A program made the translations under genes and the position numbers. From Centroberyx gerrardi (lineage: Eukaryota; Chordata; Actinopteri; Beryciformes; Berycidae), in NCBI RefSeq assembly GCF_048128805.1, contig NC_136003.1, positions 29,038,001 to 29,102,000 on the forward strand: a stretch of DNA of 64,000 nt, given 5' to 3'. Shown here one piece after another: positions 17,685 to 58,787 of this stretch (position 1 is its first letter; each line of letters begins with the position of its first letter). The notes below the pieces were generated by a model, which was not told the DNA's origin, did not search any database, and saw only the letters and a list, made by a program, of their open reading frames with translations.

Positions 17685-31134
<13,450 letters not shown>

Positions 31135-34900: not shown

Positions 34901-37670
34901 GAAACATCCATGAGTTGCAGTGCTAATGAATAAATTACTGTATAATAATTGTATTATGTAGCTATAGGAGTGTAATCATAGTTGAAGCTGAATGAAACCA
35001 TATGTGCCTTTCAGCTTTTCCGTGATTAGATGCCAAATCTCTCATGGCAGAAATCACTATTCTCAAACATCAAATCCACCCTAAACAATTTAAGGAAGTA
35101 AGGAAGCTGAGGGAATGTGGCCTTTGTTTTTAACTTTGAAAAGCATCATGTTATGCATACTCGTTTGGACTTCTTCCCCAAAACCAAAATCTCAATTCTG
35201 TGAGATGAAAGCAGTTTTGTTCGGATATTACAATGTCATGGCCTCCATTTCGTCCTGATAATTCTCGTCAAGAGCTCGTATAGTCTAAGAAAAACTGACT
35301 GTTGGCTGGTTGACCTGCAACAATATTCCAGTTGACATTAGCTCACTTGAAGCAATTTTTGCAGGCCGAGCATTTTAGCTTGTTGTTGTGGTTCGTGAAA
35401 GAAGAATCAAACATTACAAATTAAGAGTCTAATGCCTAGGGATGCATTAGCTTAGCTAGTCGCTGAATATTGATAGTTCGTTAGGTTGTTAATTTAGTGA
35501 GTGTTAGCAGCTATTGAATGGTTAGCTATTAAGCTGATGTTAGCAAAGCAAACCGCAACTGATAGCAGTAGCTAATGTTGCCTCGGTTAGCTCAGGGGTT
35601 CTCAAAAGACCCCCAATTAGACAAACATTCAACCAACGATTCAGATTTGATATAATGTTGTCCCAGGGATCCATACGGAAAGACTACTGTTACTGAATTA
35701 GCACTGTATTGTAGCTGTCTGTGCAAATGTGATAGTGGTGAGTGTAACCTGTGATTAAAACAGCCCAATTTAAACATTATCTAATTGGGCTAATTTCTAG
35801 TCATTTGAATTATAGTGAAATTATACTATCCCTGTTTTGCTAGGGATCCCCTGTAGCCGCTTTGAGGGCCCCTGGGTGTCCCCGGACCCCAGTTTGAGAA
35901 CCTCTAGTTAGCTAACTAGGTTAGTTAGCATTGCAGCTAGCTAGCAAAATCAAGCATTCCTTACCGCGGCTTATTGTGGTTCCGCTCTGGCACGAAAAAC
36001 AACTGTTAGCAGTCAAGCTAGCAAGCCTCAATCCTCATAGCCCGGGTCTGCTCACAGTGGATGATCAATGAGATGTTTGGTCCATTTTCACTGAGGTCGC
36101 CCCAGATTTCAGAGCCACGACGAAATTGGTGAACGGTTTACAGACTGTTCTGGCTAGTTTAGCTAGCTCAAACGGCTACTGCAAGCCCGCTAGCTGTCTG
36201 TTTACTGGTTTACTAGCCTTGGCTAATTGGCTAGCTTAGCTTTGCTAGCTTGCAAGCTAACGTTAGCTGTTCCTACGGGGTGTGGCTGTCGTTTCTCCGC
36301 GATTCCCCACTTCCATGCATATTGCCCGGTTACACCAAACCTTTAAAAAAATTATAGACTTAAAATCCTGTGTATCGTCTGTGCCTTGTCCTCACGTTTG
36401 ATTTCTTTCTAACACCGTTTTTGTTCTTGCTAAATACAAGATGGCACAGACTGGTGGGGCGGGACTCAAGAGTGTGGACCGGAAAATGATTTGTTCTATT
36501 TCCTGTGAGGTTTCTGCTTCACAAATAAAAGAGTATAAATAAATCGACCTAGATAATATTAATAATCTAGTACAAACGCTCGAAGGCTCGATTAAATTTT
36601 TTTTACAACACACTATGTTTGTGAGTCATATTTCATTATGTCAGCGGTCGAGGCACGGCAGCTAATGCATGTTATGTCACACATGTAGGCTAACGTTACA
36701 TGAATGAAGGGAATTTGGAGATGCTCCATTTGAGAATGACTTGAAAAATGGTAAAGGTGGACCAGTGGGATTTAGACAGGATAAGAGTACGTTTTACTGT
36801 TCAGAACTGATTTGGACGTGCTGTTGTTGTTGTTGTTGTTGTTGTTTTTTTACATTTCTTTAATGCCATAGGCTCTGTACTTAGTTTTGCTTTTCAAAAG
36901 AGTTGTTGTTCATTTTCACAAAATAGTCTATTGATTTGAGTGTCATATAAAGTGTTTGGAGTAAGATAAGATAAGATAAGATAGCACTTTATTGATCCCC
37001 TTAGGGAAATTCAGGTGCCGCAGCAGCAACTGGCAGACAATGGCAACAGGAAATGTCAAGTATACAACAACACGTAATAGGCTATACAACAATAGAGACA
37101 GAGCAGTGCAGACGGTGCAAATAAATGCAGGTAAATGCAAATAAAAATGCGAATTATAATGCAAATAATAACTGCAGAATTTCGGCTAACGGATAAGTCT
37201 GTGGATATATTTCAGAGGAACGTAATTTCCTTGTACAGCACAGTCAAGAGATCAAGTTGTTAAGTTATTAGGGCCGGTTGGGGGGGAGTTGTGCAGGTTG
37301 CATGGGGGGGGTGGGTCGTGGGTCTGGGAACTGCTCCTCATCAGCCTCAGCTCATGGTAGAGCGGGTGAGAGGGGTTCTCCAGGATGGCGCTGATCTTTC
37401 CCCTCATCCTCCTCTCTGCCACTGCCTCCAGACGGTCCAACTTGAGCCCCAACACTGAGATAAGACAAATTCTTAAACTGACCTCCAGCTGGTTATCACA
37501 ACACAATAACAACCACCAACATTAACAAAAATCAATTACACTTTTCAGAAAAAGCATTGATTTATTTTGTCCTTACAAGACTTTGTTCATCTCATCCACC
37601 ACATTGTCATCTTTTTGGATAACACACACCAGTGGGATCCACCAGGTGAAGACGTCGGTCCTTATCAGGC
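31930..37670 (-). CDS. Unidentified gene X, two phase-compatible exons (partial)
   Basis: Exon N, 37577-37670, lies between a good acceptor (CTTCACCAG|GC) and donor (GTCTT|GTAAGG) and encodes LIRTDVFTWWIPLVCVIQKD then DNVVDEMNKV. Exon N+1, 31930-32128, follows a strong pyrimidine tract and acceptor (TTTGTAACAG|A) and encodes 65 residues ending SPDDQFESLY and a stop. Exon N ends in phase 2 and exon N+1 supplies the missing base, so the two join in frame. Both exons occur in the same order and close together in an inverted copy at 59081-60346. In this copy 5.4 kb separates them, including a LINE tail and the putative taok2 first exon. I do not recognise the protein. Upstream exons were not found. 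It may be a gene relic or a captured transposon exon. Confidence 0.45.
33040..35960. other. Gene-free intron sequence
   Basis: AT-rich sequence in the putative first intron of taok2. No exon or clear transposon was recognised. Around 35440-35600 and 35900-36280, GCTAGC/TTAGC words are strongly over-represented. Confidence 0.4.
35965..36330 (-). other. taok2: Putative non-coding first exon and promoter of taok2
   Basis: The coding exon at 31003 has an acceptor 9 nt before its ATG (TTCTCCAG|GCCCTGGCA), so a 5' UTR exon must exist upstream. The best candidate ends at a donor GCCGCG|GTAAGGAA at 35965 in a locally CpG-richer stretch, with more CpG up to about 36330. Start site and exon length are not determined. 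Confidence 0.4.
36822..36846. repeat. (TTG)n microsatellite
   Basis: About seven TTG units followed by a T run. Confidence 0.85.
36962..37475 (-). mobile_element. 3' part of a LINE with (TTATC)n tail
   Basis: On the minus strand the text reads as a LINE ORF C-terminus (LDRLEAVAERRMRGKISAIL, then NPSHPLYHELRLMRSS). Its 3' UTR then includes AAGGAAATTACGTTCCTCTG-like sequence and ends GATCAATAAAGTGCTATC followed by TTATC repeats. Two shorter relatives are at 37797-38165 (+) and 55965-56410 (-). Family not assigned. Confidence 0.65.
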
Positions 37671-37796: not shown

Positions 37797-38165
37797 GAAC
37801 AATTGATCTCTTGACTGTGCTGCACAAGGAAATTACGTTCCTCTGGAATATATCAACAGACTTATCCGCTATCCGGAATTCTGCAGTAATTATTTGCATT
37901 TTTATTTGCATTTACCTGAATTTATTTGCACTGTCTGCACTGCACTGTCTCTGTTGTTGTATATTATGTACATTACCTTTATCTTATTTTAGTACCTATT
38001 TCTTCTATTACCTTGCTGTACTTGAATCATATCATACTTGACATTTCCTTGGCTCTGTCCGCTAATTGCTGCTGTGGCACCTGAATTTCCCCAAGGGGAT
38101 CAGTAAAGTGTTATCTGATCTGATCTTATTTTATCTGATCTGATTTGATCTGATCTTATCTTAAA
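37797..38165 (+). mobile_element. LINE 3' tail, same family as 36962-37475
   Basis: Near-identical, in inverted orientation, to 55965-56410, including AGGAAATTACGTTCCTCTGG and GGATCAGTAAAGTGTTATCTG. It ends in degenerate TTATCTGATCTGATC repeats. The homology to 55915-56410 continues past the element into flanking AACACTTTTTTGGTC sequence, so it is part of a larger duplicated block. Confidence 0.7.
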
Positions 38166-38524
38166 ACTATGAAATAACACAAATGGAATTGTGCAGCGAC
38201 CAAAAAAGTGTTAAACAAATCAAAACTATCTTATGTTAGATTCTTTAAAGTAGCCGCCCTTTGCCATGATGGAAAGGCAAAGGCTTTGGAAAGAAATTAA
38301 TACACAGACATCAACTTCACTATTTGCATTTGTCTACGAAACTAATTTCAAGCATTTAAGCAGAAGCCTTTAGATCAAAATGGCTTTAAGAGAATGAAAA
38401 ACATAGTATATTCAATCAGTGTAAGTATGTATGTTTTCAAAAGCAAGGCATCAGCAAACGGCCAAATTTGAGCATGAAGTCAGACTGGTTCTCTCCGAAC
38501 AGAGTTCAGGGATCACAGACCAGA

Positions 38525-38819
38525 GTTAAGATCTGCTTATCTTTTTTAGTCAGTGTGGTAAATGGTTGTACTGTGTAAAAGGTGCTGCATGTCCCATTTT
38601 AGCATCAATAAATCATTGCCACGTTTTTAGACATTAGTATGATTAGAGTAAACAAATGAGACCATCGCTGAGAAGACTGTCAGCCTCTATCAGCCTCTAC
38701 TCTGCATCCTCCATTGTTTCTCCACCTGGTGGATCTGGGGGGAAATCATCAGGTCTGACTACTTCCTACAGAAGATTCCTCAGGACCGGTCTACCTCGTG
38801 CTGCTGAATGTGAGGGAGG

Positions 38820-38859
<40 letters not shown>

Positions 38860-38915
38860 AAACACACACACACACATATAGAGCCTCACTTTTTTTACCT
38901 ATCCAGTCACGTTGG
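38525..38915 (+). pseudogene. Rearranged fragment of taok2 (intron 5 joined to exon 9)
   Basis: 38525-38747 matches taok2 intron 5 (27290-27520 on the minus strand), both the unique text (GATCTGCTTATC..TTTTAGTCAGTGTG) and the MITE inside it. At 38751 it switches to exon 9: the acceptor CAG, then GTCTGACTACTTCC, a 21-bp gap, TACAGAAGATTCCTCAGGAC, a 4-bp gap, CTGCTGAATGTGAGG including the donor. An intron-9-like CA tract and ACCTATCCAGTCACG follow. The two deletions break the frame. It lies on the strand opposite to taok2, upstream of it. It is a DNA-level copy, not a retrocopy, because intron sequence is present. Confidence 0.8.
38824..38877. repeat. (CA)n microsatellite in the taok2 relic
   Basis: An interrupted CA tract. 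It corresponds in position to the GT/CA tract at 25688-25710 beside true exon 9. Confidence 0.9.
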
Positions 38916-38999
38916 ACCACACATGGCACAACCCTCTGAGACATAAAACAAAGAGATTGCCAGCAATTATAAATATACATTATACGACTCAAAATGATG

Positions 39000-39681
39000 A
39001 GAAATTAGAATAAATTAACTTAGCATACTTCAACTTCAGTCAGTTTATTTGGTATTGTTCAAATGTACTTCAAAAACAATACAAAGTCTTAAATTTTGCT
39101 TTATTTTCTTCTAACATAACAGTTCTAGTTTGTTTTTTTCTGGTTTGTAGTTAAGCATAATGTCTGTAGGGCATTGAAATGAGTATATTCTGGGTGTTAC
39201 TATAAAACAAGCTATTATTAAAGCTGATTTGAGACAATTTGAAATCATAATCGTTTATTAGTTAGTTACACATAATATGAGTTGTACATAACATATGCTG
39301 ATTCTTTCATTCAAAAACATCCAAAATACACATTTTATTCTTATCAAGGTGGAAAACCTCTGAAACAGCCATCAGACCATGAGACACTGAAACCCAGGAT
39401 AATAATAATCATAACATACTGGAATCTGATCAAGACACTCTCAATAAAATCAATTCAGGTTAAGAGCTTCCCATAGACAGCCAGTGTAGTATTGATCAAT
39501 TCTACAATCAATATGAACAAACTGCATCATGTCAGATGTGGACGTCACTGACAGGCCAATATCCAATTTCTAATTTCTTATATTTCAAACTGGTATATCA
39601 CTATAACCTTATTCTCTGCTATCTGCTGGCATTCTCTTCAGCTTTAAATTCCCAGAAAAGCGTCCCTGACCTTCCACTTTC
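39000..39681. other. No gene seen; MITE-like repeat at 39330-39600
   Basis: AT-rich sequence downstream of the protease stop codon on its strand, so part may be its 3' UTR. Blocks at 39330-39600 match the repeat at 7740-7990. Confidence 0.4.
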
Positions 39682-55299
<15,618 letters not shown>

Positions 55300-55690
55300 C
55301 TTGTTAATTGTTCTGACTGTGTGTTATCAGTGAGACAATGGCGCAGTTTCTACCAAGAGAAGGCGTGATACTCCAAACCAAACCTGCCGTCATTCTCCAT
55401 CACTGTTAATACTTCACATGCTCCACACATGTAACTCCCTCCTTCTCAAACTTAAGAACAAACTATGGTGTTCACAAGTCTACCAGCTTTCAACAATAAC
55501 TATTCATGTCAAATATTGAAACAGACCATGACAAAAAGGCTTTTTTTATTCACTACACTTGCTGTTTTTGTCTTAAACACTAACTGCTAAAGCCTACTGT
55601 TGTTTTACACCTGAATGTTTTAATGTGTAAGGTACTGCAGTAATCTAATCTATTAGTTTGTAAATTGTTGTAAGGTTGAAACAAGTTGAA
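55300..55690 (-). promoter_or_regulatory. Upstream region of the protease gene, conserved in the inverted copy
   Basis: Sequence upstream of the ATG at 55299 is repeated in inverted form at 62313-62701, with few differences (for example GAATGACGGCAGGTTTGGTTT and GTGTTATCAGTGAGA-type blocks). Similarity stops at about 55690, where the other arm meets an L2 LINE. Both copies therefore keep about 390 bp of putative promoter. No TATA box was assigned. Confidence 0.45.
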
Positions 55691-55964
55691 AACAAATCCT
55701 CCATGACAGCCAATCACATAAAAACACATTTGTAACAAAACTGTATATTATGTAGCTCTAAGTTGATCTAAGTCTGTCTTTATGAATTTCTTTTGGCTAG
55801 ATGATTATGAAAAACTTCAGCTATGTTTTAGAAAGTTTCCATATTGCTCTCTTTATTTTTAAAGCATAGGAAAAAAGGCAGGAGATTTTGTTTGTGTAAT
55901 ATCTGAGTTTGCTAACACTTTTTTGGTCACTGCATAATTCCATTTGTGTTATTTAATAGTGATC

Positions 55965-56410
55965 AGATCAGCTAAGATAAGCTAAGCTAAGCTAAGCTAA
56001 GATAAGATAAGATAAGATAAGATCAGATCAGATCAAATCAGATCAGATAAAATAAGATCAGATCAGATCAGATAAGATAGCACTTTACTGATCCCCTTGG
56101 GGAAATTCAGGTGCCACAGCAGCAATTGGTGGACAGAGGCAAGGAAATGTCAAGTATGATATGATTCAAGTACAGCAAGGTAATAGAAGAAATAGGTACT
56201 AAAATAAGATAAAGGTAATGTACATAATATACAAAAATAGAGACAGCGCAGACAGTGCAAATAAATGCAGGTAAATGCAAATAATAAATGCAAATAAAAA
56301 TGCAAATAATTACTGCAGAATTCCGGATAACGGATAAATCTGTGGATATATTCCAGAGGAACGTAATTTCCTTGTGCAGCACAGTCAAGAGTTCAATTGT
56401 TCAAGTTATT
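55965..56410 (-). mobile_element. LINE 3' tail, inverted partner of 37797-38165
   Basis: It begins with a degenerate GATAA/GATCA tract (55970-56080) and continues as the mirror of 38165-37797. It is part of a larger inverted block starting near 55915. Confidence 0.7.
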
Positions 56411-56745
56411 AGATGTGTTGATGTTATTCTAAAATGTGGAAAACAGTGAAACTGTGAAAATAAAGAAAAATGTGGTGTGTCCAAGGTTTGACTGGTAGTT
56501 TACGTGTTTAAGATCTTTATCAAATCATTAGAGTCCACTGATGAATTCGGCACTTTTGACCCACCAAGCAGCCTTCATTTCAGTAAATGTCATGTTATAT
56601 ATGCAGTTCACTTGTTATTCCTTTGTTTTATTATCAAAATACACTGTAGGGGAAGTTACAAGCATCATGAATTAATTAAAAAAATTGTCATTTTATTGAA
56701 ATAAGTCCTGCTTAGTGGATGGTAAGTTTGGGGTTCAACAAGGTG

Positions 56746-57282
56746 AGTGGTGGAAAGAGTACAAGAATGTCCTGGTCCAGTAGAAGTACCGTTACTTTGC
56801 TGTAGTTTTACTTCAGTAGAAGTAAAAGTACTGGTGTAAAAATCTGCTGAAGTAAAAGTAAAAAGTGTCTCATTTAAAATGTCCTCAGAGTAAAAGTTAC
56901 TGAGTTCCTTTTTAGAAAAGAGAACGTTGTTAGCTGTGATCTTTTCCATGTGATTCTAACAGGAGAGAGGACAGAGTTCAAACTGGATTCTTTTAAATGG
57001 AAAAATTGGAAATTACAAAATAAAGTGTACAAAGTAAAGCCAGATTCCTCTTCTCACTGTGAATGGATCCACAATTTGTCAATTTATGATTATCCAGTTT
57101 CTGATACTTATAGAGAGCCACAAAATCTGTCCTCTGTAATGGATTTGAATGCAGCAAAGTACAATACTTAAGTAAAAACTTACTTAAGTAAAAGTAAAAT
57201 TATTGACTTTAAAAAATTCTCAAGTACACAAAAAAGCTACTCAATTACAGTAACTGGAGTAAATGAGTTACTGTCACCCTTG
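56746..57282. mobile_element. hAT-type MITE, 537 bp, perfect 8-bp TSD
   Basis: It starts AGTGGTGGAAAGAGTACAAG and ends GTTACTGTCACCCTTG. The flanking ACAAGGTG occurs at 56738-56745 and 57283-57290 exactly. Same family as 40000-40332 and, more distantly, 4197-4665. Confidence 0.8.
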
Positions 57283-57435
57283 ACAAGGTGTATTTGTTTG
57301 TCAACAAGAATGGAAACATTAAACTCCCAGGTTTCAGCAACACACTGACAACATGAAGTATATAATGAAATGGCTTCTGAATTTATGTTCATATTCAGTG
57401 AAGTTTAGATTCACTGTGATCTTGTTGCTGTTATT

Positions 57436-57632
57436 AAAGGTCCCATATTCTCCACTTTCCAGTGTTTTATTTTCTGTCTTGAGGTCCATTCAAAGCTGTG
57501 TGTGTGGTCTCATGTACCAAAAAACACTCTCAATCCATTTTTACATGTTAATTTTCCAGCATCTCTCCTAGCCTTGCCAAGAACAGGCTGTTTCTGTTGC
57601 TGTGTCTTTAAGGCTCATTAATATTAACTAGT
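57436..57632. repeat. Dispersed repeat, direct copy at 60477-60675
   Basis: About 200 bp shared in the same orientation (CTTTCCAGTGTTTTATTTTC, CTTGAGGTCCATTCAAAGC, CAAGAACAGGCTGTTTCTGT, TAAGGCTCATTAATATTAAC). No ORF or clear inverted ends. Confidence 0.75.
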
Positions 57633-57930
57633 GCAGTGCCTGTTCAAAATGTGCCTGTCTGGAACGGGTCCAAATTGCACCAAATCCGACACTGCACGTC
57701 CTTGGGTCCCCAGCAATACACCCGCCAAGTGAGAAGTAGATCGGACGAACGGTTCTCGAGATATGCGAAGGACACACACACTCATTCACTCACAGACAGA
57801 GATTCCTGGAATTAGTAGATAGATGACCCTCTGTTCTCACTGGCTAACCTTTTTATTATTTATTACTGTTTGTCTCACACAAAGCACATTTCTTCTGCTT
57901 CCTGTCCACAAGCTCCTCCCTTAAGCCCTT

Positions 57931-58442
57931 TTAAAGGCGCTACATGTAATATTTTAAAATCAATAAATCATTACCACAAACAAACAAGACCATTTTCGAG
58001 AAGATTAGCAGCCTCTTCTCTGCATCCTCCATTGTTTCTCCACCTGGTGGATCTGGAGGGAAATCTGCTGGATCACTTTACAGCACAAAACAGGAAGAGG
58101 TTCTGTTCTTCCAGAGCAAACGGAACTAAAGCTTTCAGAGTTTCTGGCAGCAGATTGTGGAAGGAGGGAAAGACCAATGGAAAAATCACTTTATCAATTA
58201 TCAGCTCTTCAAAACAAACACATGCGGAGCAACACCAGGGAGGGGGACAGGAAGTAAGAGGGTTTATGGGAAATGTAGTCTTAATTTGGAGAAACACAAG
58301 CACACTAATAATACCACCTGTGTGAGATAGAGACTAGTCGTCTCCACCATGGTCTCATTTGTTTACGGTAACTATACCAAGGTATCGCAGTTAAATTGAC
58401 AATGATATATTGATGTTTAAAAATGCTACATATAGCACCTTT
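57931..58442. mobile_element. Full-length MITE, same family as taok2 intron 5
   Basis: The ends AAAGGCGCTACATGTAATAT and ATGCTACATATAGCACCTTT form an inverted repeat. The core shares TCCTCCATTGTTTCTCCACC and GAGCAAACGGA blocks with 27060-27475 and with the half copy at 38576-38747. Confidence 0.75.
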
Positions 58443-58787
58443 AAGATCATTATATAAACCTCCACAGCAACTGAAAAGATTCTCACTGCTGAGAGGGTGC
58501 TAGCTTTATGGAGTCCCACTCACTGGCTACCATGAGTAATGACAGAGTCAGATGATGGGCGATATGGCCTAAAAATAAAACATCAGATTTTTTCGCACCT
58601 ACACCCGATTTATGATTTCAATCTTTTTTTTTTCTTAAAAACAAACTAAAAAAGACAAAGGCATTATTCAAATAAGTGTATGAAAAATATATGAAACGCC
58701 ACCGCATCTGTAATGTCTTTCCACCAGGGCCCCTTCTTGTCACATGGGATGCCACGGGAAAATGATGCCGCTAATGTTACCTGCTTG

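Follow-up and report, generated by a model that had tools for sequence, protein, structure and literature searches.

The window, i.e. the whole stretch of 64,000 nucleotides that was analysed, carries taok2 and a gene for a trypsin-like serine protease, both on its minus strand, and a short inverted relic of taok2 sits in the 3' flank of the protease gene. The parent gene was assigned to taok2 because its kinase exons scored higher against solved TAO2 (451 bits) than against TAO3 (419 bits). Exons were numbered as coding exons, exon 9 being the 82 bp at 25801-25720. The ATG exon is preceded by a splice-acceptor-like sequence, which makes a non-coding first exon likely. The stretch 35960-36500 is CpG-rich (observed/expected 0.67-0.90 in 400-bp windows) and ends in a GTAAGG donor, and was considered a candidate promoter with a putative non-coding exon 1 of taok2 (36.45-35.96 kb). 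The protease gene was recognised by Pfam PF00089, found in three protease ORFs among the nine ORFs scanned. The features needed below are the following, C7 being the contig of the window and C17 a second contig of the same genome.

25286 to 25646, minus strand: MITE in taok2 intron 9, with ends TAGGGCTG...CAGCCCTA, absent from both relics
25651 to 27512, minus strand: source segment, taok2 intron 5 to intron 9, from the alignment with the relic
38163 to 38419, plus strand: multi-copy element, about 93-95% identical to other copies, without its last ~29 bp
38423 to 38527, minus strand: left flank, a stretch of the 3' unit of the protease locus that lies the other way round on C17 and at the C7 paralog; the three bases it shares with the relic reflect an ambiguous alignment
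38525 to 38577, plus strand: relic of the unique part of taok2 intron 5, matching 27512-27460 on the reverse strand (53 bp, 91%)
38578 to 38747, plus strand: relic of the left half of the intron 5 MITE, matching 27459-27286 (170 bp)
38748 to 38752, plus strand: joint left by the deletion and the TCAG that ends intron 8, with ~1.48 kb of taok2 missing
38753 to 38809, plus strand: exon 9 relic, 57 of 82 bp, with losses of 21 and 4 bp and three substitutions
38810 to 38912, plus strand: beginning of intron 9 as a relic, including the donor GT, the CA tract and CTATCCAGTCACGT
39685 to 46028, minus strand: trypsin-like serine protease gene
26831013 to 26831203 of C17: sister relic, with taok2 intron 8, 19 nt from the start of exon 9, and intron 9 sequence

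Local alignment of positions 38300-39200 with the whole window returned two collinear matches, both on the reverse strand of taok2. The first pairs 38525-38747 with intron 5 at 27512-27286 (213 of 227 positions identical, 93.8%, E 5e-97), with ten substitutions and one 4-bp gap, while the second pairs 38756-38852 with exon 9 and intron 9 at 25777-25680 (86%, E 5e-27). A third, shorter match joins 38891-38912 to 25672-25651 (20 of 22 bases) and runs through CTATCCAGTCACGT. The matches are far beyond chance, and both exon 9 and the unique part of intron 5 align significantly. They bear out a sequence-only reading that had described an inverted, internally deleted DNA copy of taok2 at 38525-38915, in which intron 5 with its MITE is joined to the exon 9 region and the start of intron 9 with its CA tract follows. 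The left end of that interval was reproduced; at the right end homology stops at 38912, giving the relic a length of 388 bp.

The intron 5 and exon 9 pieces meet at 38747/38748, the segment missing at this joint being the remainder of intron 5 through intron 8. Exon 9 has lost 21 bp, a multiple of three, and 4 bp, which shift the frame, as had been claimed; the three substitutions were counted on the alignment with taok2. The same reading had listed both splice sites of exon 9. The donor GT is indeed intact at 38810, whereas the acceptor is incomplete, since the TCAG at 38749-38752 is kept and the polypyrimidine tract is gone.

Much of the intron 5 piece is repetitive, 170 bp of it being the left half of an element that has inverted ends and occurs in multiple copies. 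The same MITE, whose inverted ends start with AAAGGTGCT, also lies in the window at 26918-27462 and 57930-58445. When the relic was compared with the genome, the 40 places scored, out of 1392 candidates, were the relic itself, taok2 intron 5 (94%) and 38 other places (83-88%). Within the MITE part, there are ten alignment columns in which relic and intron 5 share a state that is not the majority one in six other copies, namely those of the 38 places given as loci; in five of these columns the shared state occurs in none of the six. Nine other columns, four of them forming one gap, differ between relic and intron 5. The shared derived sites thus indicate that the relic comes from the intron 5 copy. 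The substitutions in its intron 5 part are nominally uneven, with five in the 53 unique bases and five in the 170 MITE bases, which counts against the history proposed below.

Among the four places found, taok2 alone matched the 53 unique bases, and the relic is therefore not merely an independent MITE insertion. The exon 9 part was found at two places, the relic itself and taok2 exon 9. These searches covered the 779-Mb genome and, at their sensitivity, taok2 is the only other match for the non-repeat parts of both relics; on these comparisons the window relic is derived from this taok2. The exon 9 search missed the relic on C17, which keeps only 19 nt of that exon, so further small taok2 remnants could exist. 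Pattern scans of viral_contigs with the MITE core and of genome_contigs with the relic joint, two collections not intended for fish, gave 0 matches each.

A genome search with the right flank of the relic (38880-39330) gave four other matches, and the best of them, on C17, continues across the relic border. There GTGAGGGAGG is followed by a CA tract, by ATCTATCCAGTCACGT and by the flank also seen in the window. On the left, this C17 sequence has taok2 intron 8 (25875-25804, 67 matches in 72 positions), from which a short filler leads to the acceptor; of exon 9, 19 nt remain at its start and the other 63 nt are gone. A genome search with the intron 8/exon 9 stretch returned three matches, itself and two in taok2. 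A second taok2 remnant beside a duplicate of the same protease locus is a new finding with respect to the sequence-only reading, and the two relics, both at protease loci, are the taok2 copies found in the genome.

The right-hand junction, CCAGTCACGT-YGSACCACACATGGCACAACCC, at 38912/38913 in the window, is common to the C7 and C17 relics, which indicates descent from a single insertion. Since the window relic keeps intron 5 and the C17 relic intron 8, the ancestral copy would have held both, and the deletions would be later and independent. The pair of remnants thus gives direct support to an order in which duplication would have come first and deletion afterwards. The relic is part of a duplication of the protease locus and occurs beyond the neighbourhood of taok2 as well, a point that the earlier reading had missed. 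We consider it very probable that it is an unprocessed partial DNA duplicate of taok2, moved with the protease locus to C17 and then altered by deletions and an inversion.

The trypsin-like protease copies form an array on C7, at 39685-46028 of the window and at C7:29104000-29122200, with a probably decaying copy on C17 at 26831204-26848000. Window positions 38913-44057 pair piecewise with C17 up to 26836370, with K2P distances of 0.057-0.095 in the five pieces measured, those full of gaps or repeats being left out. A motif scan of the C17 protease copy did not find the last-exon part with GDSGGP, the end of the catalytic domain, and this copy is probably a decaying pseudogene. In the window, positions 54990-58472 are related to the region 3' of the C17 and C7 protease copies (pieces of 73-94%, broken by elements), and the motif scan found no protease motif beside them.

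Near the corresponding place, the two protease paralogs on C7 showed no taok2 piece but separate MITE copies. Their distal flanks lie further from the window flank (K2P 0.162 and 0.152), as would be expected if the insertion followed those splits. It counts against the proposed history that the closer of the two paralogs, which differs from the window by only 0.033-0.041 in the gene body, has no relic, so that gene conversion within the array, or loss of the relic, must be assumed; its distal flank, at 0.162, does fit an older split, and conversion appears likely from these distances. Across the protease copies, the divergence of gene bodies and of flanks differs, which likewise suggests conversion in the array.

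The distances also bear on the timing. Relic and taok2 differ by 15 substitutions in 295 positions (intron 5 of the window relic plus intron 8 of the C17 relic, without their exon 9 and intron 9 parts), and C7 and C17 by 205 in 3027 (the five measured pieces), proportions that are not different (Fisher P 0.33). Copying of the relic and its dispersal to C17 may therefore have been close in time. Against the proposed history, a relic older than the C7/C17 split should be at least as distant from taok2 as C7 is from C17, and the nominal order is the opposite (0.051 vs 0.068), a difference that is not significant.

The taok2 piece could instead have been copied first to the C17 protease locus and then have reached C7 with that locus. 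Although the present data accommodate either order of C7 and C17, we regard this course as quite unlikely, since taok2 and the relic lie ~11 kb apart on C7 and the C17 protease, without its GDSGGP last-exon part, looks like a decaying daughter.

A further alternative is a one-step templated insertion with template switching, in which two taok2 fragments would have filled a break at once, exons 6-8 never having been present in the copy. The two segments do lie in one orientation, the joint could by eye carry a 2-bp microhomology (TC) or a 1-nt filler, and templated insertions of Class 2 are an established type (PMC5110952). Such a patch, however, does not predict intron 8 in the shared ancestor of both relics, and the C17 relic, with the same right junction, has intron 8 from 25875 to 25804 followed by its short filler in front of the acceptor. 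We therefore judge this explanation very unlikely.

The right border of the relic lies next to the MITE of taok2 intron 9, which we take to be a hAT element from its ends and its 8-bp target copies (GCGTCACA and ACGTCACA). In the window the homology stops at ACGT, 4 bp into the 8-bp target, and on C17 one base later, at ACGTC. The A of the ACGT in the relic is that of the right target copy, and it is thus probably the left target copy in taok2 that has changed. No MITE sequence was found at the right border of either relic. It had been proposed that this MITE might date the copy; with the border inside its target, both orders fit and no date follows, since such a border can arise if the MITE is the younger of the two or if the copy stopped just short of the MITE.

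The coincidence of the border with the MITE target is striking but was noticed post hoc. Because the duplicated segment ends inside the 8-bp stagger of the present intron 9 MITE, a hAT transposase break might have started the copying, with the MITE and the inverted duplication as products of one aberrant transposition. We give this origin only a slim chance. The CACATG that follows the right junction could be read as a continuation of the empty site, with P ~0.005 for that word and ~0.05 for any shared word of at least 6, again post hoc.

On the left side, the genome search located the flank piece 38423-38527 three times: beside the window relic, 1.5 kb away from the one on C17, and ~2.5 kb past the last exon of the closer C7 paralog. 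At both other places its orientation relative to the protease gene is the opposite one, and the left edge of the relic is thus a probable inversion breakpoint in the window lineage. As the left edge would be a later breakpoint, the original copy may have exceeded 1.86 kb. The neighbouring element at 38163-38419, presumably Tc1/mariner-like, lacks ~29 terminal bases, which is a sign of further breakage.

Capture of a taok2 fragment by a transposable element, either a Pack-type element or a Helitron, would suit a neighbourhood so rich in elements, and the relic lies inside two imperfect inverted pairs of only 17 nt (88%) and 18 nt (78%). These pairs are short and lie at unrelated distances, and apart from them no element termini enclosing the relic were recognised at its borders. 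Moreover, the flanks do not behave as a dispersed family, the left one occurring at three places including this one and the right one at four others, with all the other places at protease copies or within a few kb of them. Capture is thus highly improbable.

Retroposition of spliced or partly spliced taok2 RNA has next to no chance of being the origin: taken together, the two relics contain sequence of introns 5, 8 and 9, ruling out a fully spliced RNA; neither relic end bears a poly(A) tail or A tract; and the 5-bp repeat GACCA near both ends of the relic, which would speak for it, was rejected as a target-site duplication, a shared word of at least 5 occurring in 8% of random pairs (P 0.08), other windows giving a 4-mer (P 0.25) and the left edge being probably a secondary breakpoint.

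The preferred reading is therefore still a DNA duplication followed by deletion and not retroposition, as the sequence-only reading had claimed; the introns of the relic and the intron 8 kept on C17 behind the same junction both speak for it. In this history, DNA copying would have placed at least 1.86 kb of taok2 (intron 5 to intron 9, if contiguous), inverted, on the 3' side of the protease gene next to it, ~11 kb from taok2. The protease locus carrying the relic would then have been duplicated, from C7 to C17 as we infer. The window copy would have lost ~1.48 kb from intron 5 to intron 8 as well as the 21 and 4 bp of exon 9, and the C17 copy the part left of 25875 and 63 bp of exon 9. In the lineage of the window, an inversion may have set the piece of protease-locus flank against the left edge of the relic. 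Lying between the putative promoter of taok2 and the poly(A)-signal motifs of the protease, the relic would since have drifted neutrally.

As judged from its sequence, the relic appears non-functional and no sign of function was seen in it. It bears the 4-bp frameshift and the 21-bp deletion, and has lost exons 6-8 and the polypyrimidine tract. On the protease strand AATAAA occurs at 39334, 39254, 39100 and 39044, and the relic lies beyond all four. It is situated ~2 kb upstream of the putative non-coding first exon of taok2 and is therefore probably absent from the taok2 transcript; a role as an inverted repeat pair acting on taok2 RNA was rejected for this reason. Elsewhere in the window, a 120-bp unit is tandemly duplicated at 48667-48901 (2.0 copies with 98% matches).

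Partial gene relics are common, and this one tells little about the function of taok2. Its interest lies in the two sister remnants, which share one junction and have suffered different losses, so that duplication, inversion and deletion can be ordered from a single genome. The relic also marks a duplication of the protease locus between two chromosomes, and automatic annotation could mistake it for a taok2 exon. No mention of this relic was found in the literature searched.

Among known systems, the composite insertions produced by alternative transposition in maize resemble the relic in having a duplicated segment that borders a transposon site; they are described as flanked by transposon termini (PMC4270019), whereas the right junction of the relic shows no element end. 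Like the Class 2 templated sequence insertions (PMC5110952), the relic is a short genic patch from elsewhere without a poly(A) tail; unlike them, it has a sister on C17 that shows a fuller ancestral copy, with the deletion coming later. Its introns, the missing poly(A) tail and a flank repeat within chance set it apart from processed retrocopies. The relic is an ordinary molecular fossil of a kind already known. Unprocessed (duplicated) pseudogene fragments arise from local segmental duplication and, as in these, the parent introns are retained, the parent is identifiable and disabling changes are present. The relic resembles them in being intron-bearing, partial, disabled, near its parent and carried along by further duplication, and it differs from a typical fragment of this kind in being only 388 bp long and inverted, and in having two remnants whose different deletions order the events.
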